Of a stretch of DNA of 64,000 bases, positions 36,128 to 64,000 are shown one piece after another. The notes beneath the pieces were generated by a model. It did no database searches and had not been told where the DNA came from. It saw only the letters and a program-made list of their open reading frames with translations. The stretch's first letter is position 1; the number at the start of each line of letters is the position of its first letter. The position numbers and the translations under genes were made by a program. Source of the stretch: Flavobacteriaceae bacterium (GTDB lineage Bacteria; Bacteroidota; Bacteroidia; Flavobacteriales; Flavobacteriaceae); assembly GCA_021648265.1 (NCBI GenBank), contig JAKITD010000001.1, positions 62,001-126,000 on the forward strand, in the 5' to 3' direction.

Positions 36128-37246
36128 TTACGCTAATGACTTCTCCTTATTATGTAAAGGCACTACATACATTTTTAAAACACGATGATAAATATCTTCG
36201 TTGGTAGCTTTAGATAAATATTCTTTAAATTCTCCTACTTCTTTGTCTGTATAATGATGCCTATATTTGGTTTCATTATACAGCATATCATGTGCTATGT
36301 AGTTTGTTTTTTGAATCTGGTAGTTTTTATAAACTACTCTGTCTATTTCGTTTGCAATACTAATTACATCTTTTTTACGATTATTTGTGAAATTAATATT
36401 GTTAACATTTAACTCTTCAAAAACTAATTTTACATTTCCTTTTGGGTCTTTAACTCCATTTACAAGGCTGTAAATATTTTCAAACTGTCGTTTTTTATAA
36501 ACACCTTCTTTTGCAATAATACTTAGCTCGTTTGCTTTTTCGAAAGCACAAGGTTCGTACTCGTAAGATATACTTGAGACAACAATATTCAATTCTCTTA
36601 CGGCTTCTTTTATATCTTTCCCGCCACTTAACAGTAGCATTTTTACAAGTCCAGGTGCTGTAATATCGTTTCCATTTTTTGTTCTGCCCCTATTTTGTGC
36701 AATCCAAGAAGAGGTGTTTTTTTTGGTAATAGAATATCGCAGATAATTTGATAGGTTTATTGAGTTTCTAATCGTTTCAGACCGATTGCTATTTCTTATA
36801 ACCGTAAACATATTATTTAATTTTGAAACCGCCTTCATAGTTTCATTAACCATTAGATTATCGCCCAAAGATATTTCGGTAAAAGGTCTTCCAATATCCC
36901 ATAAGTGGTTTTGAAGTAATGCGGAATCTAAAAAAATATCTCTATGGTTAGAAATATACAAACAATTAGGTTTATTAATTTCTTCGATTCCTACTATTTT
37001 AAAGGAACTCATTGTTGCTTTTATAGAGTTCTTTATAACCATCTCTATAAACTGAACCTGAAAATCCGAACAAGACTTACAGTTTCGTAATTTCTTAATC
37101 ACCTCATTTTTAGTCCATTTTGGATAAAAAAACTGAATGCCTTTTATAAATTCGTTATTAGTTTCTAGCCATTTTAATGCTTCCAAAACTTGCTCTTTTG
37201 TGTAAGGTTGGATGTCTTTAAAATCTTCTGTTATTTCTAAATTCAT
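36128..37246 (-). CDS. PlsC-type acyltransferase
   Basis: 372 residues with a glycerolphosphate-acyltransferase-like core: the HX4D catalytic motif is NHRDIFLD (about residue 99) and the later conserved block is WIAQNRGRTKNGND. The N-terminal ~85 residues contain two Cys-containing helices (LRNCKSCSDFQVQF) outside the core. No membrane helix is evident. In this cluster it probably moves an acyl group of the pigment or of a lipid anchor; the acceptor is unknown. It ends two bases before the ligase gene on the same operon. Confidence 0.85.
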   Translation of the reverse strand: MNLEITEDFKDIQPYTKEQVLEALKWLETNNEFIKGIQFFYPKWTKNEVIKKLRNCKSCSDFQVQFIEMVIKNSIKATMSSFKIVGIEEINKPNCLYISNHRDIFLDSALLQNHLWDIGRPFTEISLGDNLMVNETMKAVSKLNNMFTVIRNSNRSETIRNSINLSNYLRYSITKKNTSSWIAQNRGRTKNGNDITAPGLVKMLLLSGGKDIKEAVRELNIVVSSISYEYEPCAFEKANELSIIAKEGVYKKRQFENIYSLVNGVKDPKGNVKLVFEELNVNNINFTNNRKKDVISIANEIDRVVYKNYQIQKTNYIAHDMLYNETKYRHHYTDKEVGEFKEYLSKATNEDIYHRVLKMYVVPLHNKEKSLA

Positions 37247-37247
37247 A

Positions 37248-38537
37248 CTACGTTCTTTTATCTACAAATAAGATTGGTTTTCTATTTATTCCTGGAAATT
37301 TAAGTTTATTTACATCGTCTATCGAAAGAATAACGATACTAGGCAATACTCTTAATTTGGCTCTTACATGGTCTTTTAGGCGTTTCATTAAATCTTCGGA
37401 AGCTGCTTTTGTACCTAGTTTTATGGTTATATTATCCATTCCTACTTCATTTTTATCTAACTCAATAATATAATTTTCAATTTCTGGAAAACCGTTCAGT
37501 AAATTAAACATTGCTGGTGGATAAATGGTGGTTCCTTTATATTTTATCATCTGTTTTTTACGACCAATAACAGGTCCTAATCGCAAAGTGTTTCTTCCGC
37601 ATTTACACGAGTTATAATGTGCTTTTACTACATCGCCTGTTTTAAACCGCAATAACGGCATGGTTTCTACACCTAAAGTGGTTATAACCAACTCTCCTTC
37701 TTCTCCTTTTTTAACAGGAATATTATCATCATTTAAAATTTCGACAATAATTAATTCTGGATGAAGATGTCCTCCTTGCTGAAACTCACATTCAGAAAAG
37801 GCAGTACTCATCTCGGTAGAAGCGTACGTAGAATACAGCTCGATATTCCATTTACTTTTAATTTTTTTTGATAAAACATTATCCGAAAAATCTTGGTTTT
37901 TTAACGGCTCTCCAATACAAATAACTCCTTTTACAGAACTTGAGTTGATGTCTATTTTATGATTTTCGGCATACTCAATCAACTTCAGTAAAAAAGAAGG
38001 AACTGCGATTAAATAAGTTGGTTTAAATTTTAAAATAGAATCCCATTGTAATTCGGGAATTCCTGCTCCAACTCTAATGATACCTGCTCCTAATTTTCTA
38101 GCTCCTAAAAAATAGGCTAATCCTGCTAAAAAACGTCTGTCGATAGTCGTCATTAACTGTACAATGTCTTTTTCTGAAACTTTTGAACAAGCAAACGAAA
38201 TCGCTTCATTATACGCCAACCGATCTAAATCTTTATCTGAAAGTCCAAAAAAAACTGGTTTTCCTGTCGTACCCGAGGTGGTTACATAATCAATAATTTT
38301 TGAAGTAGAAACACAAATAAAATCCTCGTTATATTTATATAAATCTTCTTTTGTTGTTACTGGTAACTTGGTAAGGTCTTCCAAAAAATTAATACTAGAA
38401 ATATCAATATTATTTTGCTTGAAAACGTCTTTATAAAACGTGGAGTTTTCAGCTAAGTAAGCTAATAACTCTTTTAGTTTTAGTTCTTGAAAGACTTTTA
38501 TTTCTTGAACCGATTTTAATTCTACTTCAGGAATCAT
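37248..38537 (-). CDS. AMP-dependent acyl ligase (PaaK-like)
   Basis: Adenylate-forming enzyme of 429 residues. The ATP-binding loop is TTSGTTGKPVFFG (about residue 86), the aromatic-site region is ELYSTYASTEMSTAF, and LLRFKTGDVV and GRKKQMIKYKGTTIYPPAMF mark the hinge and C-terminal lid. A Cys pair in SCKCGRN is as in phenylacetate-CoA ligases. In aryl polyene pathways a ligase of this sort activates the 4-hydroxycinnamate starter and loads it on ACP; that is the likely role here. It overlaps the C45 gene by four bases (ATGA). Confidence 0.88.
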   Translation of the reverse strand: MIPEVELKSVQEIKVFQELKLKELLAYLAENSTFYKDVFKQNNIDISSINFLEDLTKLPVTTKEDLYKYNEDFICVSTSKIIDYVTTSGTTGKPVFFGLSDKDLDRLAYNEAISFACSKVSEKDIVQLMTTIDRRFLAGLAYFLGARKLGAGIIRVGAGIPELQWDSILKFKPTYLIAVPSFLLKLIEYAENHKIDINSSSVKGVICIGEPLKNQDFSDNVLSKKIKSKWNIELYSTYASTEMSTAFSECEFQQGGHLHPELIIVEILNDDNIPVKKGEEGELVITTLGVETMPLLRFKTGDVVKAHYNSCKCGRNTLRLGPVIGRKKQMIKYKGTTIYPPAMFNLLNGFPEIENYIIELDKNEVGMDNITIKLGTKAASEDLMKRLKDHVRAKLRVLPSIVILSIDDVNKLKFPGINRKPILFVDKRT

Positions 38538-40186
38538 TTAATTTTCCTTTTAATTTTAGTAATGTAACTCTCTATTTTCTGTTTGTCTATAGCGGTGGTA
38601 ACTTCTTTACTTAGTGCTGTTTCAAACTGTAATAATGCTGCTTTGTAATATTTATTTTTGTAGTAATATTTTCCCGCAAGATAGTAAACTCCCCAAAAAT
38701 CGTGATTTAAAGATGTAAAATTATTTAATGTTTTTAAACTTATACTCTCCTTTTCTTCTATAATTTTCTCAATTTCATTTTTCTTAATTCTAAAAGTTTC
38801 ATACTTTATAAAGGCTTCAGAATTTACAAATAAATCTTTTTTAATTACTAATTCTTTTATCGAAAGTGAACTTGTTTTTTGATTTGAATTTGCAAAAACA
38901 CTATCCAACTGAAAAGCTACAAAAGCACCTAATTGATATGGATTGGAAGAAACCCAAACCATTTTTCCTGAAGGCTGAAACACAATACTGTGATGTGCTA
39001 ATAATTGGTTGAGTGCTTTCTCGTTTCCATAGCCAATCTGCAAATCGTTTATTCCTTCTTTATTTCTTAAAATTGCAACTGCTTTTTCTGGCGTTATTTT
39101 TTCTTCTTTTAAAAGCTCTTCCATCCTATCGAATCTGTATTTTGAATGACTCTCTATAATTGCTTTATTATTGTTTTTATCGTCTTTATAGACTTTACTT
39201 TGAAAATGGTTAGAACAAATTATTTTAGATGAATTGGTTACTTCAAAAACTCCAAATTTATCGGGCGACATTTCAATTAATATCGCTTTATTGTCAATAG
39301 CACTTCCAACCATAATAGATTCTGAAACAAAAACTTCTCGTTTTTTGGCAATAGCAATGGCTTCTTTTATTGTTGAAGCATACTGGATAATTTCTCTGGT
39401 TACTAGCGAAATTGGTGTTTTTGCTACCAACGGAATGTCCGATTTTCCTGCATTAATGGTAACTGTTAATCCTTTTTCGTTCATACCAGACATCACTCCT
39501 ATCATTCCTGCCCAAGAAACCGCCATATATTTGTATCCTTTTTCGGGCTGGATAAAGGAGATTAATTTATCTTCAGAAAAACCATCTCCTGCATAAAAAT
39601 CGAAGTTTCTTGCGATAATTAAATTTCCGTCTTTCGTATTTTCTCCCCAAACTGCAAAGGAAGAACATCCCACCAAAGCCAAATCCTGAAAGGCATGACC
39701 AATATCATGAGCACTATGCAAAAAAAGTGTTTTTAGATAATTATCTCCTAAAAATTTGTATTTTTTTGAACCATATTTAGAAACTCCGTAGATTTCTGTT
39801 TTGTATTCTTCGGTTACATGCAGGTACATTTTTCGTCCGTACCAAGTTAAAAATTTACGCAGAAGATACTGCTTAAATTTGGAAGGAACCAAGGTGTTTA
39901 ATTTATTAAAAAATAACTCTTCTTGTTTTATAATAAGCTCTTTAGAAAGTACACCAATTGTGTTTCCTAACTCTAGTGGATTTCCTGAAGCAACCAGTTC
40001 CCATTGTCCAAAATTATTTTTCCGAAGACTATTTTTTCCTTTAAAAAAAAGGGTGTCATTTATTGCAATTCTTGAAGAATCATTAATAGTATATTGGCTA
40101 ATATCTGGTCTGTCTTTGATTGACCTCTTTGTTCCGCAAGAGGATAAAACTACTATTAATCCGACGAGAATAAGACGATATAACAT
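38534..40186 (-). CDS. C45-type acyltransferase/hydrolase lipoprotein
   Basis: About 550 residues from ATG 40186. The signal peptide has lipobox VVLSSC (Cys at about 17), so it is a membrane-anchored periplasmic lipoprotein. The central domain matches the Ntn-hydrolase C45/acyl-CoA:6-APA acyltransferase family: the nucleophile Cys is in GCSSFAVWGENTKDGNLI (about residue 173), followed by RNFDFYAGDGF and GMNEKGLTVTINAGKSD. The last ~150 residues are helical and TPR-like (YYLAGKYYYKNKYYKAALLQ). Family members make or break amide and ester bonds, so this is a candidate for pigment ester formation or lipid attachment. The longer start at 40213 is less likely. Confidence 0.82.
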   Translation of the reverse strand: MLYRLILVGLIVVLSSCGTKRSIKDRPDISQYTINDSSRIAINDTLFFKGKNSLRKNNFGQWELVASGNPLELGNTIGVLSKELIIKQEELFFNKLNTLVPSKFKQYLLRKFLTWYGRKMYLHVTEEYKTEIYGVSKYGSKKYKFLGDNYLKTLFLHSAHDIGHAFQDLALVGCSSFAVWGENTKDGNLIIARNFDFYAGDGFSEDKLISFIQPEKGYKYMAVSWAGMIGVMSGMNEKGLTVTINAGKSDIPLVAKTPISLVTREIIQYASTIKEAIAIAKKREVFVSESIMVGSAIDNKAILIEMSPDKFGVFEVTNSSKIICSNHFQSKVYKDDKNNNKAIIESHSKYRFDRMEELLKEEKITPEKAVAILRNKEGINDLQIGYGNEKALNQLLAHHSIVFQPSGKMVWVSSNPYQLGAFVAFQLDSVFANSNQKTSSLSIKELVIKKDLFVNSEAFIKYETFRIKKNEIEKIIEEKESISLKTLNNFTSLNHDFWGVYYLAGKYYYKNKYYKAALLQFETALSKEVTTAIDKQKIESYITKIKRKIK

Positions 40187-40301
40187 ATGACGTACGATAT
40201 TTATTTTCAACAAATTGAAAATTTTTTAATAGCGATTAATTGTTTCCATGTTAATAAGAACAATGGTACTACTAAAAAATAATAGCTGTTTTTTAGTAGC
40301 A

Positions 40302-41828
40302 TTATTGATCCAATGATTTGTTAATTGATTCCATTATTTTTCCTTTTCCTAAAATATGTGAACACGTTAAAACTCCACTAATAGCAACTCCTAAGATGCC
40401 ATGCATATTTAAGCTTTGTCCTGTAAAGAAGAGTTTTTTAGATTTTGTTTTTGGAGACAGCAAGGATGCCAATGGGTTGTCTGCATCTTTCTCGTATCCA
40501 TAAATAGCACCATTATCAGAACCAATATAATCTCTGTTAGACAACGGTGTTGATGCATGAACAGATCTTATACAGTCTCTAAAATTTGGGAATTTTTTTT
40601 CAATTTCATCTAATACTTGCTGAATCTTTTTTTCTTTAAACGCTTCATAATCCTCTCCTCTTTTAGATTCTAACGCTACTGTATTTACGGTGTCTTTCCA
40701 TTTTGCAAATTCATTAAAATCCATATAGGTCATAACAGTTACAGTGTGTGCCCATTTACCTTGGTTCTTTTTTCTACCCAACGAAATCATATAAGATTCT
40801 GGCCACAACTTTTTGTCGTAACCTTCTGTAAACCAAAGCTTATCTGAACTGTTAAAATGATATATATTATTGTCAAAATATTCAAATGTATCTGGCTTTA
40901 GCACCACATAAATACTGAAAATAGAAATCATGCTTTTTATTCTTTCTACTCTATTAAAGTAGGATTTTTTTAAGACCCTTCCTTTTAACATTTTTAGGGT
41001 AAGTTTAGGTTCTATATTAGAAATAAAATAATCTGCCTTAACCTCAACACCGCTTTTTGTAATTACAGTTTCTATTTCATTATTTTTAATGCCAAAATCT
41101 GTAACTTCTTGATATTTAAACAACTCTCCTCCGTTTTTTTTAATTTGCTTTATTAGTAATCTCGAAATTTGGCTTCCTCCATCTACACAACGCCAAGAGC
41201 TTGTAATGTAAGAGTTTACCGATAAGGCATGGACGTAAAGTGGGGTGTTTTCGGTTCCTGCATACAACAAATTAGTACCTAATAATACTGAAATTAATTT
41301 TTTATTATCTGTAATCGAATTTAAGAAATCTATTAATTTTATACCTAACATTTTGAGGTTGTAAATACTTTCTTTTTTTAAATTATACAACGGAAAACCA
41401 TCGCATAACTCTTGCATTTTTTTACAATAATCATCGATAGCCTTTTTTTCGTCTGGGAAATATTCTTTTAATCTTTTAGAAAATTTATCATAACCTTGTG
41501 CGTAACAATATTCTTTTGGGTCATCACCAAAAGTAACAATATCGAAAGCATCTTCATTCATCCTTTTTATATTAAGACCGTCCATGATACCCAAATATTT
41601 AAAATATTGGTACAAGTTTTCTCCTTCGCCAAGTCCTCCCAAATAATGCACTCCTGTATCAAATAATTGTTTATCTCTAGTAAAGGTTTGCAGATTCCCT
41701 CCAAATTGGTTGTTCTTTTCTAGCACACAAACACTATAGCCATGGCGCGACAATATAACTGCAGATGTTAATCCAGCCATTCCGCTACCTATAATTACGA
41801 CATCGTATTTTTTTTTTATTTCTTTCAT
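40302..41828 (-). CDS. FAD-dependent oxidoreductase, phytoene-desaturase/CRTISO-like
   Basis: 508 residues. Dinucleotide-binding motif VVIIGSGMAGLTSAVIL at the N-terminus with EKNNQFGGNLQTF, and the C-terminal FAD motif LFFTGQSLNMHGILGVAISG. The whole length resembles carotenoid desaturase, isomerase and retinol saturase proteins, which act on polyene chains. In this cluster it could desaturate, isomerise or reduce the aryl polyene. It is single-copy here and flanked by the C45 and MMPL genes (short gaps of 62-115 bases). Confidence 0.85.
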   Translation of the reverse strand: MKEIKKKYDVVIIGSGMAGLTSAVILSRHGYSVCVLEKNNQFGGNLQTFTRDKQLFDTGVHYLGGLGEGENLYQYFKYLGIMDGLNIKRMNEDAFDIVTFGDDPKEYCYAQGYDKFSKRLKEYFPDEKKAIDDYCKKMQELCDGFPLYNLKKESIYNLKMLGIKLIDFLNSITDNKKLISVLLGTNLLYAGTENTPLYVHALSVNSYITSSWRCVDGGSQISRLLIKQIKKNGGELFKYQEVTDFGIKNNEIETVITKSGVEVKADYFISNIEPKLTLKMLKGRVLKKSYFNRVERIKSMISIFSIYVVLKPDTFEYFDNNIYHFNSSDKLWFTEGYDKKLWPESYMISLGRKKNQGKWAHTVTVMTYMDFNEFAKWKDTVNTVALESKRGEDYEAFKEKKIQQVLDEIEKKFPNFRDCIRSVHASTPLSNRDYIGSDNGAIYGYEKDADNPLASLLSPKTKSKKLFFTGQSLNMHGILGVAISGVLTCSHILGKGKIMESINKSLDQ

Positions 41829-41890: not shown

Positions 41891-44800
41891 TTAAAGTTTA
41901 ATAGGTTTTTTTAACGCTACAATATTATTGTTTTCTGAAACTATCACAAAACCTACTGTTTCTAATTTTTTAGCCGCATATACATTATTTACGATTATTA
42001 CTTCTTTAAATTTTTCAATTTCTGAAATATTTATCACACTTTTACAATCTTTGGACGTAAGTAATAAGGTATCAAAATTTAATTGTAATTGCTCTTTAAA
42101 TTCAGAAAGATATTTAACGTCTCTATGCAAATTTGTAAAGCAATTTTCTGCAATTGCTTGTTTGTTTTTATCGTGTATAAATGTGGTTATTTTTCTGTCT
42201 AAAAACTTAGCGACTAAAAGTATATCTATCTGCCCAAAATCATCTGCAATATGAAGGATTTTAGATTTTATTGGCACTATTTTATTTAACAAAAAATACC
42301 GTTTTTTGTTTTCTTCAAAATCTATAGAAACCATTGTAATTAACTCTTTTTCTTTAAATTTATAATTAGAAAACAGTATCCTTTTATAGTAATCTATTCC
42401 TTCTACTTCTTCTCTAAATTTTAAAAAATTATTTTTATAAAGACCACTTATTTTTTTTGCTCGTTCCCGATCTGTTTCTCCAAAATTAATATCATTATAG
42501 GCAATTCGCTCTCCTACTTTTACTGTAATGGCTCCCGAATAAATCATGAAATCTCCTTTGGGCATTACTTCAGAATTACCGTGAATATAGATAGGAAGAA
42601 CATCAATTTTTAATTGTTGTTGCAAAAAGAAAGCACCTTTATGAAAACGTCCTATTTTATTGGTAAATGATCGTTTTCCTTCTGGAAAAACACATAACAT
42701 ATATCCTTGATTTAGTTTGTTTTTTAAATGTGTTACACTTCCGTCAACTCCTGTAGATACGGGGTAAAATCCTAAAACTCTTGCTAAAACACCGAATATG
42801 GGCGATTTATAAACCCAATCGTTTACCAAGTAAATAGTGTTGTGTGCTAACGAACTCATCGATAATGTATCTAACGAAGATGCGTGATTTGCAATAACTA
42901 TCGCAGGTTTTCTAAAGGTCTCGCCAACATCATTTACCACCCTTTTTTTGGTTAAATAATTGTTTTTTAATACTTGAGTTACAAATCTGGAAATTATCTT
43001 GTGCATCCATTTGTATTTTTTCTTTTTAGAAATCGGAATGAGTTTTAAGATCGTAATACTAAATAATGAAAAGAACATTCCGCCGATTGCATAAAAAGCG
43101 GTAAGTAAAAAAGACCTCATAAAAAGCATAAAATGTATAGGCGAATTTCCTCTTTTTGCTCTATCGCTAATAAAGGTTTTAAACAATAAAGGCTGTATGG
43201 TAAACACTACAAAAACAGTAACTAATATGCCTATTAAACTTACCATCGAAATTGAATACACCGCAGGGTGTTTAGCAAAAACCAATACTCCAACACCCAA
43301 AACGGTTGTAATTACCGAAAGTATTATAGAGATTTTATAAGTACCTACTTCTTTTGTTCCGTAGGTATAATCTTTTCTTAAAGCATTGGTCATAAAGATG
43401 CTATAATCGATTCCTAAACCAAAAATAAATGAGGAAATAATAATATTAAAAACATTAAATTCTATCTTAAAAACACCCATTATTCCAATGGTTAACAACC
43501 AAGTAAGCATTATCGGAATACTCGTAATTAACGTTAAAGACAAGCTTCTATAAAACAAAAATAGTATTAAAACTACTACTAGTAGCGAATAAATTATCAA
43601 TCGATTAAAATCGTTTTTTAGGTTTCCTAAGAGCGTTTCGTTAATTTGTTTTCGGTCTATTGGCAGTACGTTTTCTTGATTTTTAAAAATACCTAATACT
43701 TCTTGTAAATTTTCTTCTTTAACCTTTATCAACGAAGTAACTGTAGTAAAATCTTGTTCTGCATTGATATAATCGCTCACAAGAAAAGTTTTAATTTTTT
43801 GGTATTCTTTTAATGAAATAGGTTTAAAATCTTTAGCAAGCAACGTGTAAAATTGCTGAAATGTCTTGGGTTTAAAACCTAATTTTGTACCGCTTTCTAC
43901 AAGATTATTTTGCGTATTTATTTTGGTATCTTTATCCCAAAAAGAGTTCCATAAATTTATTTTTTCTTGCTGTATTTTTTCAGAAAAAACCAACGCACCA
44001 ATAGAGCTAAAATTATAAATTTTATCGTTTTCTTTTAAAACTTTTAATTTAGTAAACACCTCATCATTAAGAGATAATGCTTTGTCTTTATCTTCCGAAA
44101 ATGTTGCAATATATAATGATTTTGAAGAGAAATTAATGAGTTTATCTAGGTTCTCTTCAGAAGCTACCATTTCTGGAGGCATATAATTTAGCTTGGTTAA
44201 ATCTTTACTAAAAACCACTTTGTTATAGGTGAAAAAGCTAACTATCAAAATCACAAATAAAACACCCAATCCCAATTTGCTTTTATGAAAATTATAGCGT
44301 GCAATTTTATCTAAAATGGTGGTTCTTTTTTCTTTCTTTTCAGAAATTTTATATACTTGCGGAATAAACAACAAAGCAAAAACCGAAGATCCCAAAACAC
44401 TTACTGCAGCAAAAATCCCTAAATCCTGCAAGGCTTGAGAGTTGATAAACAATAAGCATAAAAATGCCAAAGCAGTTGTTAAACTACTCATTAAAATTGG
44501 CTGTGCAACATCTTTATATAAAGCTTTTACATTATTATTATTTCGTAAATGCGTGAGAATATGCAACGAATAATCAATGGTGATTCCTAAAAGAACCGAG
44601 CCTAACCCCAAAGATATTGCCGAAATTTTATCACGTACTAAAAACAAAAAAACACCCGCTAATAACCCACCAATTATGGTAGGAGCAAACAATACAATAG
44701 GAATGGTTATTTTTTTATAAAACACCATAAGTATAAGCATTAACACCGAAAGCGAAATACTAACCGTTACCTGAATGTCCTTTTTTATTTGCCTTGCATT

Positions 44801-48164: not shown

Positions 48165-48171
48165 AATAAAA

Positions 48172-53560: not shown

Positions 53561-54169
53561 TTATGTATTGTATAATTGTTTTAAATTTTGTTCTGTATGT
53601 TCAATAATTCCTTTTTCAGAAACCAAATATAAAAAAGCTTCGTAGGAGTTTTTATCTATATTTACCCAACCTGCCAAAACAGACTCGCATTTGTTATTTT
53701 GTAGTAAGCTTTTTTCGTAATTATAATGAAAATTTGCATTGTATTTTTCAAATACAAAAAAACCATTTTCACTTTTTAATTGATGCCTAATACTAATTTC
53801 TCCAATGCCAATATTTGGCAATGTATATACAAATACTGCTGGGCTTGGAAAGTAATTATCTTTATCGTTTATTGAGTTTTGGTATTTACGATCGGTCTCT
53901 AAGCTTGATGCATTATTGGAGAGTATAATTGCTGTGTTTTTTTCTTTAGTATTTACTTCATTTAAAATAATCTCGGCAGAAAGAAAAGCGAGTTTACTCA
54001 ACAAATCCATTTTAAAATATTTGGAATATTTAATTTCTAAAAACTGATAAACATCTTTAAAAAAATCTTTCACCTCTAAAGTATCTGCAGAAAAAACCAA
54101 GTCTCCGTTTACAGAAATTTCATTGTTTTTAATAGAACAATATTTTTGTATGTGCGTTTTTTTAAGCAA
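53561..54169 (-). CDS. Half-length ketosynthase-like protein
   Basis: 202 residues that resemble only the N-terminal half of a ketosynthase: KLAFLSAEIILNEVN, AIILSNNASSLETDRKYQ and the strong match FPSPAVFVYTLPNIGIGEIS, which is the family's ASP.LFPYTLPN..AGE region. The sequence ends before any catalytic His, and no nucleophile Cys is present at the expected place. This fits the short ketosynthase-like (chain-length-factor type) proteins of aryl polyene loci. It could be a structural partner of one of the KS enzymes. Confidence 0.8.
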   Translation of the reverse strand: MLKKTHIQKYCSIKNNEISVNGDLVFSADTLEVKDFFKDVYQFLEIKYSKYFKMDLLSKLAFLSAEIILNEVNTKEKNTAIILSNNASSLETDRKYQNSINDKDNYFPSPAVFVYTLPNIGIGEISIRHQLKSENGFFVFEKYNANFHYNYEKSLLQNNKCESVLAGWVNIDKNSYEAFLYLVSEKGIIEHTEQNLKQLYNT

Positions 54170-56480: not shown

Positions 56481-56915
56481 TTATTTTAATAGTCCAACTT
56501 TTCGCTTCCAGTTTTCAAAAAATGGAGGTAAGTGCAAAAATAACTTATCATCGTCTCCTAAAAAAACTTGAGTTGTTTTACCTGTACAAACAACTTGATT
56601 AGCTTCATTATAAATTTCGTATCTAAATTTCATTTTTGCCGCAGGAGAATCTATAAATATCGTTTTTATGGTGGCAACTTCTCCATAACGCAAAGGATGT
56701 TTATGCTCGCTACTCGACTTTACAATTGGCGAGGTAAAACCGTTTTCTTTTTGCTCTAAATAAGAGATTCCGTGATGTCGCCCAAAAGCTTCTCTGCCGT
56801 CTTCAAAATACTGAATATAGTTGCCATGCCATACAATACCCAAAGGATCTGTTTCTACAAAACGAACTCTTATTTGACTGCTGAAGGTTATTTCTTTTAT
56901 TAAATTAGACTGCAT
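56481..56915 (-). CDS. YbgC-type acyl thioesterase
   Basis: 144 residues, hotdog fold. The 4-hydroxybenzoyl-CoA thioesterase motif is present as VETDPLGIVWHGNYIQYFED with the catalytic Asp in TDPLG, followed by GRHHGISYLEQKE. It may release or edit acyl chains from ACP. It overlaps the ABC permease gene by 11 bases, showing tight coupling in the operon. Confidence 0.88.
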   Translation of the reverse strand: MQSNLIKEITFSSQIRVRFVETDPLGIVWHGNYIQYFEDGREAFGRHHGISYLEQKENGFTSPIVKSSSEHKHPLRYGEVATIKTIFIDSPAAKMKFRYEIYNEANQVVCTGKTTQVFLGDDDKLFLHLPPFFENWKRKVGLLK

Positions 56916-58179
56916 TTTTTCTGTTATTATATACTATTGAAATGGTGGTGGTAATTAGAAAAAACAAAAATAGTAAAAGTAAATCTAGTATTATTTCTGA
57001 AAGTCCTGCGTTTCTTAAAAACACATCGTAAAAAGCATTTAATCCCCAATTCATTGGTGATAGTTTTGAAATGAATTGCATAAAACTTGGCATTATAAAA
57101 ACTGGAACCCAAACACCTCCCAAAGCTGCTAATACTACTACAAAAGTAGCTCCAAATGGTGCAGCTTGTTCTTGCGAAGTTGCAACTGTACCTAATAATA
57201 ATCCCAAACCAACAGCTGCCAAACCAGAAAACAAAGCTACTATAAAAGCCAAAAATATTTTACCAGAAACATCTAATGTTGGTAATCCAATGGCAGGAAA
57301 CAAATAGATTCCAACTAACATCATCAACATAAACTGTATTAAACAAACTACCAAAAAAACAATTGTTTTCCCGCCTAAAACAGTTGCATAAGAAACTGGA
57401 TTTGTTCTTAATCGTACAAAAGTTCCTTGGCTTTTTTCTTTTACCATATTAATAGACAAAGGCACGATGATAAAAAATATAGCAAATAAAGTCCAAGCTG
57501 GCACATTGTGTTGTGCAGAATTTGGTAGTACCTCATCATCATCTAATTTTGGTGTTATTTCTTTAAAACTTATAAATTTTTCTGAATTAAAAGAAAAAGC
57601 AGACTCCTCGTCTGAGAGTTGTTCTTGAAAAGCTTTATAAATAGATTTAGTTTCAATTTCCGAAATCATTTTATCGATACTACTTTTTACAGAAAGCTTA
57701 AAAGATTGCTGTATTGCGGGATCAAAATACAATCTTACTTCTTTGGTCTTTATTTCTGAAGTCACTGGATGTTTCCCTTCCTCTTCCAATCCAAACTCTG
57801 CTAAAACTCCTTCTACATTTTGATTTATTTTTTTTTCTAAATCTTTCGATAGATTTTCAGGAATAACGATAGCTAGTTGATACGCTCCTTTAAAAACAAG
57901 ATTTCTGGCTTCCTCTTCATTCTCTTTATAAACAACATCAAATAGGTTTTGCTCTTTTAAACTTTCAGAAACACTTTTAGAAATTTTTCCTTTGTCGTTA
58001 TCGACTAATAAAACTGGAATTTTGGTTTTATTTATACTCTTAAACGAGCTATCTTGTATTAATGTAATAGTAATTATTAATACTAAAGGCATTACAAATA
58101 AAATGGTTAACCCTCCTAAATCGCGAGTTAGCAATAAAGATTCTTTATATGCAGAGTTCCATAATTTATACATGATCAC
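56905..58179 (-). CDS. ABC transporter permease (ABC-2 type)
   Basis: 424 residues. One N-terminal helix (LTILFVMPLVLIITITLI), a large periplasmic part (about 45-230), then five or more helices (TLFAIFFIIVPLSINMV, VFLVVCLIQFMLMMLVGIYL, LAFIVALFSGLAAVGLGLLL, FVVVLAALGGVWVPVFIM and a C-terminal helix). The topology is that of YhgE/ABC-2 exporters. It overlaps its ATPase gene by 14 bases. It probably exports a pigment precursor or finished pigment together with the MMPL protein. Confidence 0.9.
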   Translation of the reverse strand: MIMYKLWNSAYKESLLLTRDLGGLTILFVMPLVLIITITLIQDSSFKSINKTKIPVLLVDNDKGKISKSVSESLKEQNLFDVVYKENEEEARNLVFKGAYQLAIVIPENLSKDLEKKINQNVEGVLAEFGLEEEGKHPVTSEIKTKEVRLYFDPAIQQSFKLSVKSSIDKMISEIETKSIYKAFQEQLSDEESAFSFNSEKFISFKEITPKLDDDEVLPNSAQHNVPAWTLFAIFFIIVPLSINMVKEKSQGTFVRLRTNPVSYATVLGGKTIVFLVVCLIQFMLMMLVGIYLFPAIGLPTLDVSGKIFLAFIVALFSGLAAVGLGLLLGTVATSQEQAAPFGATFVVVLAALGGVWVPVFIMPSFMQFISKLSPMNWGLNAFYDVFLRNAGLSEIILDLLLLFLFFLITTTISIVYNNRKNAV

Positions 58180-58909
58180 GTAGTTCTTTTCCTGTAAATG
58201 CTATAAAAACATCTTCTAGGTTATGTGCATTCTCTTTATTGTTAATTAGTTCTGAAGGTTTTCCTTTTATAATAATTTTACCGTGATCGATAATGGCAAC
58301 TCTGGTGCAAAATTTTTCAGCTTCATTTAAATGATGCGAAGTGTAAACAATAGTTGTACCTTCTTTATTTAATTTCTGAAGGTGTTTAATTATCACATTT
58401 TTAGATTGCACATCTACTCCAACTGTTGGTTCGTCTAAAAATAAAATTTTAGGTTGATGAAGGATACTTGCAATTAAATTGATTCTTCGTTTCATTCCTC
58501 CAGAAAACACTTCAATTTTTTTATTCGAAAATTCTGAAAGACCTAATTTATCAAGATAATCACAGATAGTGTTTTTAAGTTTTTTTCCTTTTAAACCGTA
58601 CATGCTTCCAAAATAATGAAGGTTTTCGTAAGCAGTTAACGATGGATAAAGTGCGTATTCTTGCGGAACAATACCAATTAACTGTTTAAGTTCTTGCTTG
58701 TTATTTGTGTAATTAAGACCGTTAATTAAAAAAGATCCTGAAGTTGGTTTTATCAAGGAACAAAGCATGGATATTAGGGTTGTCTTTCCTGCTCCGTTAG
58801 GTCCTAAGATGCCAAATATTTCTCCGTCTTCAATATTCAAACTTAGATTAGAAACCGAAAAATTTTCCGCTCCTTTATACTTTTTTGAAAGTTGCTGAAT
58901 TTGAAGCAT
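58166..58909 (-). CDS. ABC transporter ATP-binding protein
   Basis: 247 residues with Walker A GPNGAGKTT (about 37-45), Q-loop GIVPQEYALYP, signature SGGMKRR (about 136) and Walker B ILFLDEPTVGVD with the H-loop TSHHLNEAE. It is the energy unit for the permease encoded immediately downstream. Confidence 0.94.
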   Translation of the reverse strand: MLQIQQLSKKYKGAENFSVSNLSLNIEDGEIFGILGPNGAGKTTLISMLCSLIKPTSGSFLINGLNYTNNKQELKQLIGIVPQEYALYPSLTAYENLHYFGSMYGLKGKKLKNTICDYLDKLGLSEFSNKKIEVFSGGMKRRINLIASILHQPKILFLDEPTVGVDVQSKNVIIKHLQKLNKEGTTIVYTSHHLNEAEKFCTRVAIIDHGKIIIKGKPSELINNKENAHNLEDVFIAFTGKELRDHV

Positions 58910-58915: not shown

Positions 58916-59914
58916 TTATTTTATTGTTTTTTTTAGTTGAGTAAAAAACACTTTTTCTCTGTCTGCAATTTCATCTAATTGTGTTGCAACACTCTCGTAA
59001 GAATCTTGTAGTGCTTTTCTGTTTTTATAGATTCTTGAAGCATTTAAGGCGAAATCTCTCCATAAATTACCAATTTCGGTCATTTCTTTCGATAATTCGG
59101 CTAATTTGTTATTTTTTAAAATCGCACTAGATTCCTGTAAAAAGGCAGCAAAAATATAACGAAAACCTCCACCACCTGTTCCTATTTCTTCTTGCATTCT
59201 TACAATCTGCCCTAAGTAATGATTTGCCTTTTTTACGCCATGTTTCTTTGGCCATTTACGAATAAGGCTTGCTACATGTTTAATTCCTTTTACTCCTAAA
59301 ATTGGAATAGGAGCTAACATATCTTTGCAGGTTTGCTTGATTCCTTTTATAATAGCATTTTTTAAATCTAATTCTTTCGGGAAATCTATTGGATAATAAA
59401 TATGTCCTTTGGGAGCAAAAGCACCTTTTGCAAAACGTACTTTTTCTAATTCTCTTTCGGTTAGCTTTGTAACCTTTTCCATTATAGGGTCGCTAATTAA
59501 ATACGAATTATCTTCTTTTCCATAGACTACTAAGTTATGAGCATTAAAATGAAAGCGATATTCGTCTGGAAAATAGGCTAAATTAAAAACTCCAACCTGA
59601 AGTCCTACAGGGTTGTTTTGGGCTAAATTTTCATCTAATCTAGCTTTTGCTTCTTTTGGATTTTTAAATTTTTCTTTTTTAATTTTTATTCCAACGCGTT
59701 TTGCGAATTTTTTAAATATCTGTCCAGGCATTACTCGATAAGTAATTGCAGGTGCATGATTTACTTTTAAAAAAGGAATGTAACAGTATAAAAGACCCGA
59801 GCCAATACCAAAAACCATTGGCTCGCTTACAGGAAAACCATTATATGCCATTAAGTTTGAAACTACACCATTTTCGCAATGAGCGGTTTGTTTATGTGTA
59901 AAGTCTATCTTCAT
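58916..59914 (-). CDS. BtrH-like N-terminal domain protein, possible acyl transferase
   Basis: 332 residues. The N-terminus (residues 3-60: KQTAHCENGVVSNLMAYNG, FGIGSGLLYCYIPF) matches the BtrH-type papain-like fold, with a conserved Cys13 in HCENG. The later HNLVVYGKEDNSYLISDP supplies the His and Asp typical of this group. In butirosin synthesis BtrH moves an acyl group from ACP to an amine, so an ACP-to-acceptor transfer is plausible here. The C-terminal helical part fits DUF4872. A good candidate for joining pigment halves. Confidence 0.85.
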   Translation of the reverse strand: MKIDFTHKQTAHCENGVVSNLMAYNGFPVSEPMVFGIGSGLLYCYIPFLKVNHAPAITYRVMPGQIFKKFAKRVGIKIKKEKFKNPKEAKARLDENLAQNNPVGLQVGVFNLAYFPDEYRFHFNAHNLVVYGKEDNSYLISDPIMEKVTKLTERELEKVRFAKGAFAPKGHIYYPIDFPKELDLKNAIIKGIKQTCKDMLAPIPILGVKGIKHVASLIRKWPKKHGVKKANHYLGQIVRMQEEIGTGGGGFRYIFAAFLQESSAILKNNKLAELSKEMTEIGNLWRDFALNASRIYKNRKALQDSYESVATQLDEIADREKVFFTQLKKTIK

Positions 59915-59918
59915 AAAA

Positions 59919-60320
59919 TCATTCTTTTATTTGCTGCAATTCTGTAACCGAAATATTAAAGACCTCAGCATATTTTTCTAATACTTTAGTAGATAATTTT
60001 TTAAAAACTGAAGGTTTAAAATGTTTTTTAACTCGCCAACTCCATACACCGACATAGCTAGACAAAATAGAGACATCCATTTTATTAAGTTCCATGTAAT
60101 ATTCTATAGGGCTTGTTTCATTGTTTACAACTCTTTTCATTGCCCTTTCTGTACGTTCATTTATTTCCTGAATTGCATTATCTAAGGCTATTTTTTTTGG
60201 ATTCCACCCTGTGCTCTTTGCAGTTATATACTCTCCATTTTCATCAACTGCATAACATAGTTCTTTAAAACTAGCAGACCCTAAACTGCTTTTATCTTGT
60301 GGCACATCTTCTTTTCTCAT
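59919..60320 (-). CDS. Conserved-looking hypothetical cluster protein
   Basis: 133 residues without signal peptide or membrane helix. It is mixed alpha, with a Trp pair (VGVWSWRVKKHFKPSVF) and a C-terminal helix (KVLEKYAEVFNISVTELQQI) reminiscent of a small helix-turn-helix or carrier-binding module. I recognise no family. It is 4 bases upstream of the BtrH-like gene and two bases after the hotdog gene, so it is surely co-expressed with them. Confidence 0.75.
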   Translation of the reverse strand: MRKEDVPQDKSSLGSASFKELCYAVDENGEYITAKSTGWNPKKIALDNAIQEINERTERAMKRVVNNETSPIEYYMELNKMDVSILSSYVGVWSWRVKKHFKPSVFKKLSTKVLEKYAEVFNISVTELQQIKE

Positions 60321-60322: not shown

Positions 60323-60778
60323 CTAAACTTCATGAATTAAGAAATTAAATGTACAATTTACAATTAATTTATTTTCTATAAAGGTGGAGCATTTTATATG
60401 GCATATACAAATCGAATCTGTGTCGAATCTCGAAATTAAGGATGCTCTTGTGGTAATATATTCGCCTACTTTGGGTAGATTAAAAATTTCAATTTTTTTA
60501 ATCGCACTTATATAACCCATTAATTTATTGCTTTCTCCTGTAAGATCATCCTCTAAGAAAAAACCTTGACCTACAATAGCAGTTGATGTTTGGGCTGCAT
60601 TTTCAATGAGTCCCGATGCGGTTAAATAGTTGTTTTCTACAAAAATACAATTTTCGATTATAGGCAATCCTGATGTTACAGATTCATTATCAATTTTTAG
60701 TAAATCTTTTACCATTAACATAACTCCTCTGTGCGGCAAAAAATCTTTAAAGTCTTTATTTTCTAGGCTTCTACTCAT
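60323..60778 (-). CDS. Hotdog protein, dehydratase-like (A)
   Basis: 151 residues. LPHRGVMLMVKDLL (about 14-27) matches the start of FabZ-type domains, and SGLIENAAQTSTA keeps the catalytic-helix acid (Glu59). The His 14 residues before it, catalytic in FabZ, is absent (Ile45). It resembles the ApeP-type hotdogs of aryl polyene loci. It overlaps the next hotdog gene by four bases, and the two share the string AIKKIEIFNLPK, so they are duplicates. Confidence 0.83.
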   Translation of the reverse strand: MSRSLENKDFKDFLPHRGVMLMVKDLLKIDNESVTSGLPIIENCIFVENNYLTASGLIENAAQTSTAIVGQGFFLEDDLTGESNKLMGYISAIKKIEIFNLPKVGEYITTRASLISRFDTDSICICHIKCSTFIENKLIVNCTFNFLIHEV

Positions 60779-61215
60779 AAAACAGCTAGTACTGTTTTCA
60801 TTTCACTTAATGCAATGATTTTTTCATTACATTTTGTTTCTATTTTCACTAAAGTTACACCTGCCATTTCGAACAAAATAGTTGCCGTTGTAACTAATTC
60901 GTCTCCTTTTTTTGGAAGATTAAAAATTTCAACCTTTTTAATTGCACCTATATATCCTGTTGGAGCAGGCTCTTGTTTTAAAAAATATTGATATCCTGTA
61001 AACAGTGCAACCGTTTGTGCCATATTTTCTACAAGCCCCGAAGTTGTAAATGTTGATTGAAAGGTAAATATATTTGCGTCATAAATTGTAAATCCTGAAA
61101 CTATTTTGTTTTCAGAAAAATAAAACAACTTATCGACCATTACAAATGGTGCCTTTTGAGGAATTAGATTATTAACCTCTTCTTTATTGGTTATTGGGTT
61201 TTTAAGTAAATTCAT
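60775..61215 (-). CDS. Hotdog protein, dehydratase-like (B)
   Basis: 146 residues, a paralogue of hotdog A: LIPQKAPFVMVDKLFYF at the start, SGLVENMAQTVALFTGY with Glu63, and IGAIKKVEIFNLPKKGDEL. The upstream catalytic His is absent (Ile49). It probably pairs with hotdog A or with the FabZ-like protein at 48661 to make an active dehydratase. It lies one base from the DarB-like gene. Confidence 0.83.
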   Translation of the reverse strand: MNLLKNPITNKEEVNNLIPQKAPFVMVDKLFYFSENKIVSGFTIYDANIFTFQSTFTTSGLVENMAQTVALFTGYQYFLKQEPAPTGYIGAIKKVEIFNLPKKGDELVTTATILFEMAGVTLVKIETKCNEKIIALSEMKTVLAVL

Positions 61216-62349
61216 TTAACACACGGTTAAAAAAGCATACGCATAAGAGAAACGTGCACTTTCTGGTACAGAAAGTAAAATAGTATCTCCTTTTTTAAGT
61301 TTTCCTGATGCTACTAATTCTTCAAGCATTATATAAATAGAACCTGCTCCAATATTCCCTACTTTATCAAGGTTCATAAACCAGTTGTCCCAAGGCACTT
61401 CAATATCTTGTTTTACCATTTCGTCATACAGCCTATCTCTAAAGTAGTAAGAAGAAACATGTGGCAGGTAATAAGTGATGTCTTTTGGTTTTATACTATT
61501 TTTTTCTATTGCATCTTTTAGGCTTTCTACTCCTTTTACTAGAATGTTTTCACTTAATAATTTTACATCTTGTTTTACTGAAAATAGTGATTTTTTCTTC
61601 CAGTCTTCAACAGGGTATTCTGCCCATGGCTTTAATGTTCCATCTTCTAATTTATCTCCTCCAGCGTACATACAAACTTCTAATTCGTGAGCATAGGAAT
61701 AGCCTTTCATCCATTCTATTTTTAACGGAAAATCTCCTTTTGGTTCGTTTTCTAATAAAAAAGCACCCGCACCATCTGAAAGCATCCAACGTAAAAACTC
61801 TTTTTTAAAAGCGAGAACTGGAGTTTCTTTAAGTTTTTTTAAATGAGAAATTTCATCTTCATACATATCTGCACTCATCCTCGACGACATTCTTTCAGAA
61901 CCGGTACAAACAGCATTGTTTACTTGGTTTGACATAATCGCCATATAACCATATTTTAAGGCATTCATTCCAGAACAACAAGCTCCAGATGGAGAATTAA
62001 CTTCTAAATTCACATTTTTTAAATAGCCATGAACCATAGACGCGTGTGAAGGCAACATTTGATCTGGACTGGATGTACCGCAAGAGAGTAGTTCAATTTT
62101 ATTTTTACCAAAATCTTTATCACACAATAACTCTATCGCTTCGCTAACTAATTGTGCGTTGTTATGCGTAACATTACCATCGTCATCAATAGCATAATAC
62201 CGAGTTGTAATTTTATTATTTCGCAAAACAATTCGTCTTGCTTTTGAAGTTTTACCATCTATTAAACCAAGTTTTTCTTCCATTTGATTATTTTCAATTG
62301 GGTTATTTGGTAAAAACTTAGAAATTCTTGTTATATAAACGGCGTTCAT
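61216..62349 (-). CDS. darB: DarB-like ketosynthase III (cyclohexanedione/resorcinol formation)
   Basis: 377 residues of KAS III fold. Catalytic triad visible: Cys in SGACCSGMNALKYG (about 124), His in YLPHVSSYYFRD (about 296), Asn in VGNIGAGSIYIMLEEL (about 332). In dialkylresorcinol pathways DarB joins two acyl thioesters and closes the ring. The neighbour immediately downstream in the DNA (62349) is the DarA-like protein, which is the pairing found in dialkylresorcinol loci. The four-base-or-less junction indicates co-translation. Confidence 0.85.
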   Translation of the reverse strand: MNAVYITRISKFLPNNPIENNQMEEKLGLIDGKTSKARRIVLRNNKITTRYYAIDDDGNVTHNNAQLVSEAIELLCDKDFGKNKIELLSCGTSSPDQMLPSHASMVHGYLKNVNLEVNSPSGACCSGMNALKYGYMAIMSNQVNNAVCTGSERMSSRMSADMYEDEISHLKKLKETPVLAFKKEFLRWMLSDGAGAFLLENEPKGDFPLKIEWMKGYSYAHELEVCMYAGGDKLEDGTLKPWAEYPVEDWKKKSLFSVKQDVKLLSENILVKGVESLKDAIEKNSIKPKDITYYLPHVSSYYFRDRLYDEMVKQDIEVPWDNWFMNLDKVGNIGAGSIYIMLEELVASGKLKKGDTILLSVPESARFSYAYAFLTVC

Positions 62350-63278
62350 TAATTCTTCTTTATATGTACAGATGAATAATATTTTTTATCTCTATTTCTG
62401 CTTTTGGTTAAGGGAATAAAAGTTAGCAAAAATAGCAAAAAAACTATTGGTGCAATTAACCATATTGCAACGGTTAAATATATACTAAATAACTTAATAA
62501 ATGGCTGACGACTTTCACTATTCGCAATACCTTTAGAACTAATAAAATTTGCCCATTTACCAAACAAAACATTTGCTCGTTTATCCATTACAATTAAAAA
62601 AGGCTTTATTACTATTGCGTTTTTTTTAAGTAATTGCCCTTGGAGGTTCTCGTAATTTCCTTTTAGCAAACTGTTTAATATTACAGGACCAAATTTAGTA
62701 GATTCACTTATGTCTTTATCAGAAACTCCTGGCTTCGGAAAGATTCCTAAAAACTTGGTTTTAACTCCTTTCATCATCCAATGCAAGATGGTAATTACGC
62801 TAATATGATTAATATGCCGATCTACCAAAGCAATGTTTCCAACAAGATTCGCTTTGTTTTGAATCAATAATTCTTTCATCTTTTCTTGTGCCATAATCCA
62901 CATATTCCTACAACCAATAACAGTTACTGTTGGTGTGTTTTTAAATAAAATCTTTGCTATGTCTGATGTTAAAAAAGAATTAACGGGTATCGACGGCGAC
63001 AAATACCATACTTGATAAGAAAGAATAATTAAATCGTATTTTTCTTTTAAGATTGGATCTTCTAGACCTACCAACTCGGAAGAAATTTGTAAAAATGTCT
63101 CTGGAAAAGCGTTAAAAAAAGTTTTTTTATCCCAAGGAAATGGAAAGTTTTTTTTTAATTTTATTTCATAGAAAGACAGATTAACTTCAGAAGAGTTTTC
63201 TAATTCTCTTGTGATATTCTTAGAAATATCTAACAACTGCCCTGACTGGGAATAATATACAACTAGTACTTTTTTCAA
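62349..63278 (-). CDS. darA: DarA-like protein (aromatisation of the resorcinol ring)
   Basis: 309 residues. The N-terminus is flavodoxin-like (VLVVYYSQSGQLLDISKNI, with the FMN phosphate loop SQSGQ, and ILSYQVWYLSPSIPVNSFL), which suits a flavin-dependent oxidation. The C-terminal part ends in a strong membrane helix (LTVAIWLIAPIVFLLFLLTF, about 270-290) and a basic tail. In Fuchs and co-workers' model DarA aromatises the cyclohexanedione made by DarB. It overlaps the darB-like start by one base. Confidence 0.82.
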   Translation of the reverse strand: MKKVLVVYYSQSGQLLDISKNITRELENSSEVNLSFYEIKLKKNFPFPWDKKTFFNAFPETFLQISSELVGLEDPILKEKYDLIILSYQVWYLSPSIPVNSFLTSDIAKILFKNTPTVTVIGCRNMWIMAQEKMKELLIQNKANLVGNIALVDRHINHISVITILHWMMKGVKTKFLGIFPKPGVSDKDISESTKFGPVILNSLLKGNYENLQGQLLKKNAIVIKPFLIVMDKRANVLFGKWANFISSKGIANSESRQPFIKLFSIYLTVAIWLIAPIVFLLFLLTFIPLTKSRNRDKKYYSSVHIKKN

Positions 63279-63285
63279 AATTATA

Positions 63286-64000
63286 TTATTTTATATCATT
63301 CCAGAAATCAAAATAGTTAAACCATTGGTAAGGATATTTTTTTAAGATTTCTTCGATGCTCTGCGTGTATTTTTTTAATAAATCTTGAGCATCTCTTTTT
63401 GTAAATTTCACTTCTCTTGCATAAAATTGGTAATGTTTCGAGTTTTTTTTCATGATATACAAAAAAAGAACAGGGACATTTAGTCTTGAGCCTAATAAAA
63501 AAGCTCCTGCTGGAAATTTAGCTTCTTGTCCAAATAATTTTTCTGAGAGCGTTTTACTTCCTTCAAAATAACGATCGCCAGTAACGCAAATTAGTTCGTT
63601 ATTCCGCAACGATTCATTGATTTGAAATATATGTGATAAATCGTCTCTTACTATTATAAATTTCATGTTTGATTGTAATGAAAATTTATCTAGGTAACTT
63701 TTGATTGCTTGATGCTCATTATCGGTAGTTACCAAGCTAATTTGGGAAGAATTATCAAGTTCTGACAAAAAATAATCGGCTATTTCAAAATTACCTACGT
63801 GAGCACTTATTAATATTCCGCCTCTTTTATTTTTAAGTAATCTTTTAATATTATTGTCTCCATCAAAACTGTAGGTAAACTGTTTTGACATCCCAAAAGA
63901 TATTGCAAATTTATCTATAATAGTTTGTCCAAATGTGTAATAGCTTTTATAGACTTTAAAAAAACTTTTAAACTTAGAATATTTTAACCGTTTGTGGAAG
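63286..64000 (-). CDS. LpxL/HtrB-type acyltransferase, truncated by window edge
   Basis: The frame stays open through base 64000, so the true start lies outside the window; an internal Met at 63891 is not the start. Visible: ISAHVGNFEIADYFLSEL with the HX4E catalytic motif, VTGDRYFEGSKTLSEKLFG, and the FPAGAFLLGSRLNVPVLFLY block of the lysophospholipid acyltransferase/lipid A acyltransferase family. The terminal QWFNYFDFW is as in LpxL. In the cluster it is a candidate for pigment acylation or ester formation. It lies next to darA. Confidence 0.88.
   Translation of the reverse strand, partial: FHKRLKYSKFKSFFKVYKSYYTFGQTIIDKFAISFGMSKQFTYSFDGDNNIKRLLKNKRGGILISAHVGNFEIADYFLSELDNSSQISLVTTDNEHQAIKSYLDKFSLQSNMKFIIVRDDLSHIFQINESLRNNELICVTGDRYFEGSKTLSEKLFGQEAKFPAGAFLLGSRLNVPVLFLYIMKKNSKHYQFYAREVKFTKRDAQDLLKKYTQSIEEILKKYPYQWFNYFDFWNDIK

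Follow-up and report, generated by a model that had tools for sequence, protein, structure and literature searches.

Cluster content and extent

We analysed a stretch of 64,000 nucleotides from a Flavobacteriaceae bacterium (the window; positions 62001-126000 of contig C48, which has 166,445 bases, a window coordinate being the C48 coordinate minus 62000). Its right-hand part, 36128-64000, carries a gene cluster for a yellow-orange flexirubin-type pigment that continues past base 64000. All gene-like open reading frames (ORFs) in 36128-64000 lie on the minus strand and make up a single operon-like array; with the extension beyond the window the array has 34 genes, the largest gap being 108 bp. 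Of the gene-like ORFs in 36128-64000, 29 were scanned against Pfam and NCBIfam, and the cluster was compared with 20 clusters from three families, picked among the 37 genomes with FlxA in a sample of 196 genomes of its order. NCBIfam cut-offs were exceeded by FlxA, FlxB, FlxY, DarB, DarG, DarH, LolA2 and LolB2, which bears out the first-pass annotation of the window as holding a flexirubin-type cluster. Every part named there (ligase, ketosynthase pair, second ketosynthase, acyl carrier protein, hotdog proteins, DarA/DarB, methyltransferase, LolA, MMPL and ABC proteins) is present in 36128-64000, DarA as a candidate. We consider it near certain that the cluster is complete and canonical. Its genes are listed below, with fractions giving occurrence in the 20 comparison clusters.

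36128-37246, minus strand: acyltransferase-like protein closing the operon at its 3' end, a doubtful member (PF01553, 20.3 bits, below the cut-off of 23; 1/20, G087, 54%)
37248-38537, minus strand: FlxY, 4-coumarate-CoA ligase family (NF053551, 718.8 bits, cut-off 520; 20/20)
38534-40213, minus strand: C45-family autoproteolytic acyltransferase/hydrolase (NF040521, 235.4 bits, cut-off 85; PF03417; 20/20)
40302-41828, minus strand: CrtD-like flavin adenine dinucleotide (FAD) oxidoreductase (PF13450, PF01593; 17/20)
41891-45580, minus strand: MMPL exporter-acyltransferase fusion, 1229 amino acids (PF03176 and PF01553 in one protein)
45584-46771, minus strand: glycosyltransferase 2 with a DUF2062 domain (PF00535, PF09835; 20/20)
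46776-47426, minus strand: tandem-paralogue ORF, first (no Pfam or NCBIfam match; 0/20)
47535-48224, minus strand: tandem-paralogue ORF, second, start codon uncertain (no Pfam or NCBIfam match; 0/20)
48172-48660, minus strand: small conserved protein (no Pfam or NCBIfam match; 17/20)
48661-49029, minus strand: hotdog dehydratase, FabA/FabZ-like (PF07977, 31.9 bits, cut-off 23; HFPGNPIMPG motif)
49034-49651, minus strand: LolB2 (NF053540, 243.8 bits, cut-off 60; 17/20)
49632-50258, minus strand: LolA2 (NF053544, 234.3 bits, cut-off 125)
50251-51027, minus strand: polysaccharide-deacetylase family protein (PF01522)
51021-52085, minus strand: ketosynthase-like partner without the catalytic Cys, chain-length-factor-like (PF13723; Cys-His-His missing in the alignment)
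52087-53283, minus strand: ketosynthase with Cys-His-His (PF00109, PF02801; motifs)
53301-53558, minus strand: acyl carrier protein 1 (PF00550; NF006617, 77.1 bits, cut-off 70)
53561-54169, minus strand: short protein of ketosynthase fold, 202 amino acids, without catalytic residues, at the FlxL position (profile match to ketosynthase 6kxd_B, E = 1.7e-4; alignment)
54176-55234, minus strand: FlxJ-family methyltransferase (NF053543, 461.7 bits, below the cut-off of 560)
55340-56479, minus strand: ketosynthase with Cys-His-His, at the FlxI position (PF02801, PF00109; alignment)
56481-56915, minus strand: hotdog thioesterase (PF13279; TIGR00051, 72.7 bits, cut-off 68.7)
56905-58179, minus strand: ABC-2 permease (PF12698; 17/20)
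58166-58909, minus strand: ABC ATPase (PF00005; 17/20)
58916-59914, minus strand: DarH, BtrH-related acyltransferase (NF053550, 516.2 bits, cut-off 300)
59919-60320, minus strand: DarG (NF053545, 202.6 bits, cut-off 170)
60323-60778, minus strand: hotdog-like paralogue of the gene that follows (33% identity to 60775-61215, E = 1.8e-22)
60775-61215, minus strand: FabZ-like dehydratase at the FlxF position (NF000582, 39.7 bits, below the cut-off of 113)
61216-62349, minus strand: DarB ketosynthase (NF053539, 654 bits, cut-off 550; 17/20)
62349-63278, minus strand: DarA candidate with a flavodoxin-type N-terminal half (flavodoxin matches; adjoins DarB in the same 17/20)
63286-64000, minus strand: LpxL-like acyltransferase, split by the window end (whole gene 63286-64164; PF03279, 56.1 bits)

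Beyond the window, on the same contig:
64177-64437, minus strand: acyl carrier protein 2, ACP2 (PF00550, 39.2 bits)
64442-65662, minus strand: ketosynthase with Cys-His-His (PF00109, PF02801; alignment)
65678-66430, minus strand: FlxB ketoreductase (NF053542, 416 bits, cut-off 340)
66462-67592 (L005:7462-8592), minus strand: WG-repeat protein, between flxA and flxB (PF14903; 12/20)
67603-69123, minus strand: FlxA tyrosine ammonia-lyase (NF053541, 884 bits, cut-off 700)
69210-70454, plus strand: halogenase-family flavoenzyme, 414 amino acids, FlxK by position (PF04820, Trp_halogenase, above cut-off)

The window edge and the apparent gap

No short-chain dehydrogenase/reductase (SDR) ketoreductase, aromatic amino acid lyase or second acyl carrier protein was found with Pfam and NCBIfam among the 29 scanned ORFs of 36128-64000, in agreement with the first-pass annotation, which had seen none of the three and had placed them either beyond base 64000 or among housekeeping enzymes. 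The former placement proved right: the contig extension shows ACP2, FlxB and FlxA at 64177-69123, together with one more ketosynthase, all no more than ~5.1 kb past base 64000 and in the same contig, strand and array. Since a minus-strand operon in a longer contig has its upstream genes to the right of base 64000, the absence of the ketoreductase, lyase and second acyl carrier protein from the window is an edge effect. An assembly error at the base-64000 join is unlikely, because relatives have the same gene order. Nor does the gap decide between a full flexirubin and a variant, as had been supposed; the product type depends instead on FlxJ and the halogenase-like gene at 69210-70454. Thus, a window edge can mimic a missing pathway step in a cluster that is itself ordinary.

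The extension also bears on two less favourable accounts of the locus. The cluster might truly lack the three genes, with housekeeping FabG, HutH and AcpP substituting for them, as the null result within 36128-64000 and a second aromatic amino acid lyase elsewhere in the genome, on contig C112, would allow. However, the C112 lyase reaches 333.9 bits against the FlxA model, far under the cut-off of 700, and the array itself continues immediately past base 64000 with dedicated genes for FlxA, FlxB and ACP2; we rejected housekeeping fill-in on this ground, and its probability is negligible. The cluster might instead be decayed and silent, given that the genome is a fragmented draft of 112 contigs and 92% completeness. 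We consider decay highly unlikely: every one of the 34 genes is an open reading frame, the conserved genes align with their relatives across most of their length, and the motifs of the ketosynthases, acyl carrier proteins, ketoreductase, dehydratase and lyase are intact.

Catalytic motifs and conservation of the cluster

Alignment showed that the Cys-His-His residues are kept by three ketosynthases (64442-65662, 52087-53283 and 55340-56479). With these, one ketosynthase without the Cys, the short protein of ketosynthase fold, two acyl carrier proteins and the hotdog proteins, the type II polyketide synthase core is complete. FlxB has the motifs TGGSRGIG and YSAAK, and both acyl carrier proteins have the serine of the DS motif. 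FlxA has ASG at 139-141 and NQD; we take its two specificity motifs to be represented by SH at the first position and by the Q of NQD at the second. This combination fits the mixed pattern of the C. pinensis enzyme, an in vitro tyrosine ammonia-lyase (TAL) with a motif 1 like that of histidine ammonia-lyase and a motif 2 like that of TAL or phenylalanine ammonia-lyase (excerpts of PMC3992019).

Most cluster genes recur across the 20 comparison clusters, which argues against chance resemblance. FlxY, FlxB and the C45 protein occur in all 20; DarB, the DarA candidate, LolB2 and both ABC genes occur in 17, the clusters that have local Dar and ABC genes; the WG-repeat protein occurs in 12, FlxJ in two and the ORFs in 46776-48224 in none. 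In the f5 genomes the cluster is partly inverted. We know of no proposed role for the WG-repeat protein in flexirubin biosynthesis. We also fetched 80 named loci with FlxA, which were the 80 best-ranking among at least 578 relatives. FlxB is present in 78 of these, and the remaining two loci stop 1.0-1.2 kb past FlxA. The DarA candidate and DarB are found together in 45 of the 80, and one short locus, L107, shows DarA alone. No curated DarA model matched the DarA candidate, its sole family match being a flavodoxin model (E = 0.0088).

Among the less familiar genes of the array, the products of 46776-47426 and 47535-48224 are 44% identical over 207 aligned positions. These paralogues have starts that resemble signal peptides by eye, and they form an insert between the glycosyltransferase and the small conserved gene. 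Neither they nor the ORF at 35270-36115 matched a family in Pfam or NCBIfam, and 60323-60778 matched no family in those two databases and no PDB entry. The best single alignment of the MMPL-acyltransferase fusion spans at least 97% of the protein in 17 of the 20 comparison clusters.

A halogenase-family gene beside flxA

The halogenase-like gene at 69210-70454 lies next to flxA in divergent orientation, 111 bp separating the ends of the two profile matches. In a profile search of PDB its best match was 3nix, followed by PltA, CndH, Bmp2, CmlS, Mpy16 and ChlB4. The predicted model has a mean predicted local distance difference test (pLDDT) score of 80.9, and template modelling (TM) scores by query length of 0.91 to 3nix and 0.83 to PltA. 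Foldseek placed six 3nix chains first and halogenases at ranks 7-28 (FasV being named a halogenase). Several of the nearest halogenase folds act on carrier-bound substrates.

The protein carries GxGPxG at 12-17, WxWxIP at 215-220 and FxxPxxSxG at 298-306; the FAD-binding GxGxxG, WxWxIP and FxxPxxSxG are, by our assumption, motifs of flavin-dependent halogenases, with the roles usual for them. We aligned 41 rows from 40 genomes (G163 twice). Every row has FxxPxxSxG, and all but one have WxWxIP (40 of 41), the exception having C in place of the first W. Lys73 is present in all 41 rows and aligns with a Lys of both PltA and 3nix; it is presumably the active-site lysine of flavin halogenases. In 22 of the 41 rows the reading frame had been chosen by GxGPxG, so that this motif is no test there, while Lys73, WxWxIP and FxxPxxSxG are.

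Distribution of the halogenase-like gene

In the order sample, FlxA was called over the NCBIfam cut-off and the halogenase-like protein at E <= 1e-60, and both were found in exactly the same 37 of the 196 genomes. The two share a contig in all 37 and lie no more than 234 bp apart in 33. The hypergeometric value for this co-occurrence, 8e-41, ignores kinship: the 37 genomes represent only nine genera, and independent events are therefore fewer than 37. A phylum sample of 296 genomes, partly overlapping the order sample, contained FlxA in 25 genomes and the halogenase-like protein in 23 of those 25 and in none of the other 271. All 40 genomes of a Chitinophaga sample carry FlxA, and 39 carry the halogenase-like gene inside the operon, always 6.8-8.7 kb from FlxA; the exception, G217, is also without FlxJ. 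Two genomes, G266 and G488, have the gene on the FlxA contig but hundreds of kilobases off.

The gene is near FlxA in 73 of the 80 named loci. For the other seven, it lies outside the fetched stretch in four, gave no match in two, and one locus (L077) has only 597 bases upstream; the genome-wide search for the gene covered 16 of the 80 named-locus genomes. It is likewise outside the fetched cluster stretch in G116 and G183.

Of the 37 order genomes with FlxA, 35 have DarB, which is over the cut-off in 34 and has a split frame in G088. The split gene (G088:C1:3280889-3282020) consists of two overlapping frames, the mark of a frameshift or a sequencing error. The two remaining genomes, G095 and G183, had no DarB match genome-wide, yet they keep both FlxA and the halogenase-like gene, which suggests that this gene follows the aryl-polyene half of the pathway. 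Their products are candidate aryl-polyene pigments without the dialkylresorcinol half.

In Chitinophaga sp. GbtcB8 (L156) the genes run in the order A (lyase), B (SDR), C (ketosynthase), D (acyl carrier protein), E (acyltransferase), F (dehydratase), I (ketosynthase), J (methyltransferase), halogenase-like gene, L (ketosynthase-like) and M (acyl carrier protein). This order fits the C. pinensis gene letters and makes the halogenase-like gene 'FlxK' by position, a label based on the gene order of GbtcB8, not of C. pinensis itself. The name FlxK is absent from the main text of PMC3992019.

FlxJ is rare in the order

At E <= 1e-60, FlxJ was found in five of the 196 genomes of the order, all five among the 37 with FlxA. 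It lies between flxA and the halogenase-like gene in G143 and in L098 (Flavobacterium aquariorum). Eighteen of the comparison clusters lack FlxJ at its usual place; no full-length substitute methyltransferase was found there, the slot holding either no ORF of at least 100 amino acids or only ORFs of 107-231 amino acids. FlxJ matches were obtained in 39 of the 40 Chitinophaga genomes, and none of the 40 reached the cut-off of 560 bits. Bacteroides ihuae, a control genome, is over the cut-off for both FlxA and FlxJ; the halogenase-like gene was not sought in the controls. From its sequence, the FlxJ-family methyltransferase at our locus predicts a ring-methylated flexirubin.

Proposed route and product

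From gene content, protein families, motifs, gene order and co-occurrence with FlxA, we infer every reaction of the following route. FlxA would deaminate tyrosine to 4-coumarate, which FlxY would activate. The ketosynthases and the ketosynthase-like partner, with the two acyl carrier proteins, FlxB and the hotdog dehydratases, would extend 4-coumarate to an aryl polyene, while DarB and DarA would form the dialkylresorcinol. An acyltransferase, for which DarH is the best candidate, would join the two, and the Lol, MMPL and ABC proteins would move the pigment to the outer membrane. FlxJ would methylate the phenol ring, and the halogenase homologue beside flxA may chlorinate the same ring while the substrate is carrier-bound. 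The predicted product is a ring-methylated, possibly chlorinated flexirubin. We assign a probability of roughly 0.85 to this account, that of a complete flexirubin cluster with the proposed route; that the halogenase-like enzyme chlorinates the ring is, as a separate matter, about an even bet. A wider proposal falls a little short of even odds, namely that a carrier-dependent 'FlxK' is near-universal in flexirubin synthesis of Bacteroidota, is tied to FlxA more tightly than DarB is, and chlorinates ring A during polyene assembly. Chlorinated congeners would then be the rule, and FlxJ at our locus would point to a rare ring-A chloro-methyl flexirubin.

Several observations weigh against this account or its halogenation step. 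FlxJ is below its model cut-off, the evidence for DarA consists of position and fold, and 3nix is a Cytophaga hutchinsonii protein titled flavoprotein/dehydrogenase. From rank 29 onward, the Foldseek matches include flavin monooxygenases and reductases. The two FlxA genomes of the phylum sample that account for the difference between 25 and 23 (G339 and G460) gave no halogenase-like match, and neither did two metagenome-assembled genomes with FlxA relatives, G199 (= L154) and G201 (= L152). The main flexirubin of C. pinensis, C43H54O4, is methylated and free of chlorine (excerpts of PMC3992019), and for Azoarcus the pigment is read as nonbrominated although a 'halogenase' (arcA) is listed in its cluster (excerpts of PMC3949708). 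Since the gene is present in 39 of 40 genomes of Chitinophaga, the chlorine-free published pigment is evidence against constitutive chlorination. The same count led us to reject an explanation of chlorination by presence of the gene in Flavobacteriia and absence from Chitinophaga. In favour of chlorination, a Lysobacter xanthomonadin-like cluster without a halogenase gene gives a non-brominated pigment and Xanthomonas, with one, gives pigments with 0-2 Br (excerpts of PMC3691225). FlxY is reported to take 3-chlorocinnamic acid as a substrate (excerpts of PMC3992019), so that chlorination might also precede loading.

These points could also mean that the halogenase-family flavoenzyme has lost halogenation and serves as a core flexirubin enzyme with other flavin chemistry, for instance a redox or protective reaction on the aryl polyene while it is carrier-bound. 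The chlorine-free C. pinensis flexirubin and the title of 3nix would fit such a role, as would a gene nearly as widespread as FlxA when known flexirubins differ in chlorination (excerpts of PMC3992019). However, the halogenase motifs are kept in nearly all rows, and by our reasoning C43H54O4 contains neither a surplus oxygen nor a surplus double bond that would require another oxidase. The halogenases at Foldseek ranks 7-28, several acting on carrier-bound substrates, also speak for halogenation. The chance of a non-halogenating role is appreciable, though well below even. Another alternative concerns the ester: the product might be an aryl polyene without the dialkylresorcinol ester and hence no flexirubin, as the FlxA clusters without local Dar genes (G095, G116 and G183) and the genome-wide lack of DarB in two of them would suggest. 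At our locus DarB, DarG and DarH all exceed their cut-offs and the DarA candidate lies alongside, which makes this alternative very improbable.

We therefore retain a complete flexirubin cluster with candidate ring methylation and chlorination. Flexirubins are chemotaxonomic markers, and the known ones include ring-chlorinated forms and vary in chlorination (excerpts of PMC3992019). No flexirubin halogenase was found assigned in the accessible portions of open-licence PMC text, where a gene under a different name would be missed, and the terms chlorflexirubin and chloroflexirubin had no occurrence in 14 papers of that text. A minor pigment ascribed to Flexibacter elegans under the name chlorflexirubin carries no weight in this account. 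A single linked candidate with intact motifs and the distribution of FlxA makes the origin of flexirubin chlorination testable, and FlxJ and the halogenase-like gene together would allow ring decoration to be predicted from genomes.

Other features of the window

To the left of the cluster, 25701-33245 encodes a surface protein of 2514 amino acids, whose repeats are of the TSP3, Big_9 and cadherin-like types and which bears a type IX secretion signal of the CHU_C kind. Its gene is followed by a PorP/SprF gene (24698-25642) and an OmpA-family gene (22731-24674). The G+C content is 0.37-0.40 in 26001-32000, within the surface-protein gene, versus 0.32-0.35 in the adjoining 2-kb bins.

Comparison with known systems

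We take the F. johnsoniae flexirubin cluster to be the Fjoh_1075-1110 region. Like the clusters of F. johnsoniae and C. pinensis, the cluster described here has FlxA, FlxB, FlxY, ketosynthases, dehydratases, a thioesterase, a methyltransferase, LolA (and LolB), an exporter, a glycosyltransferase, a deacetylase and DarB with a DarA candidate. As in F. johnsoniae, the dar genes are in one cluster with the rest (excerpts of PMC3992019 and PMC11885536). It differs from known flexirubin clusters in the tandem paralogue ORFs at 46776-48224, absent from the 20 comparison clusters, and from most of those of its own order in carrying an FlxJ-family methyltransferase, present in just five of the 37 FlxA genomes. 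In contrast to Chitinophaga, where the halogenase-like gene is inside the operon, here it is divergent from flxA.

The xanthomonadin and arcuflavin clusters of Proteobacteria likewise combine aryl polyene genes with LolA, an acyltransferase, an exporter and a glycosyltransferase, and a halogenase gene is listed in Xanthomonas and Azoarcus (excerpts of PMC3691225 and PMC3949708). Their aryl starter, however, comes from a chorismate-utilising enzyme and not from tyrosine (excerpts of PMC3949708). The halogenases PltA, Bmp2, Mpy16 and ChlB4 share with the gene beside flxA the fold (TM scores of 0.77-0.83 by query length), GxGPxG, WxWxIP, FxxPxxSxG and the conserved lysine. They are only 22-26% identical to it, whereas 3nix is closer (46-47%), and the gene is a candidate halogenase by sequence and predicted model.

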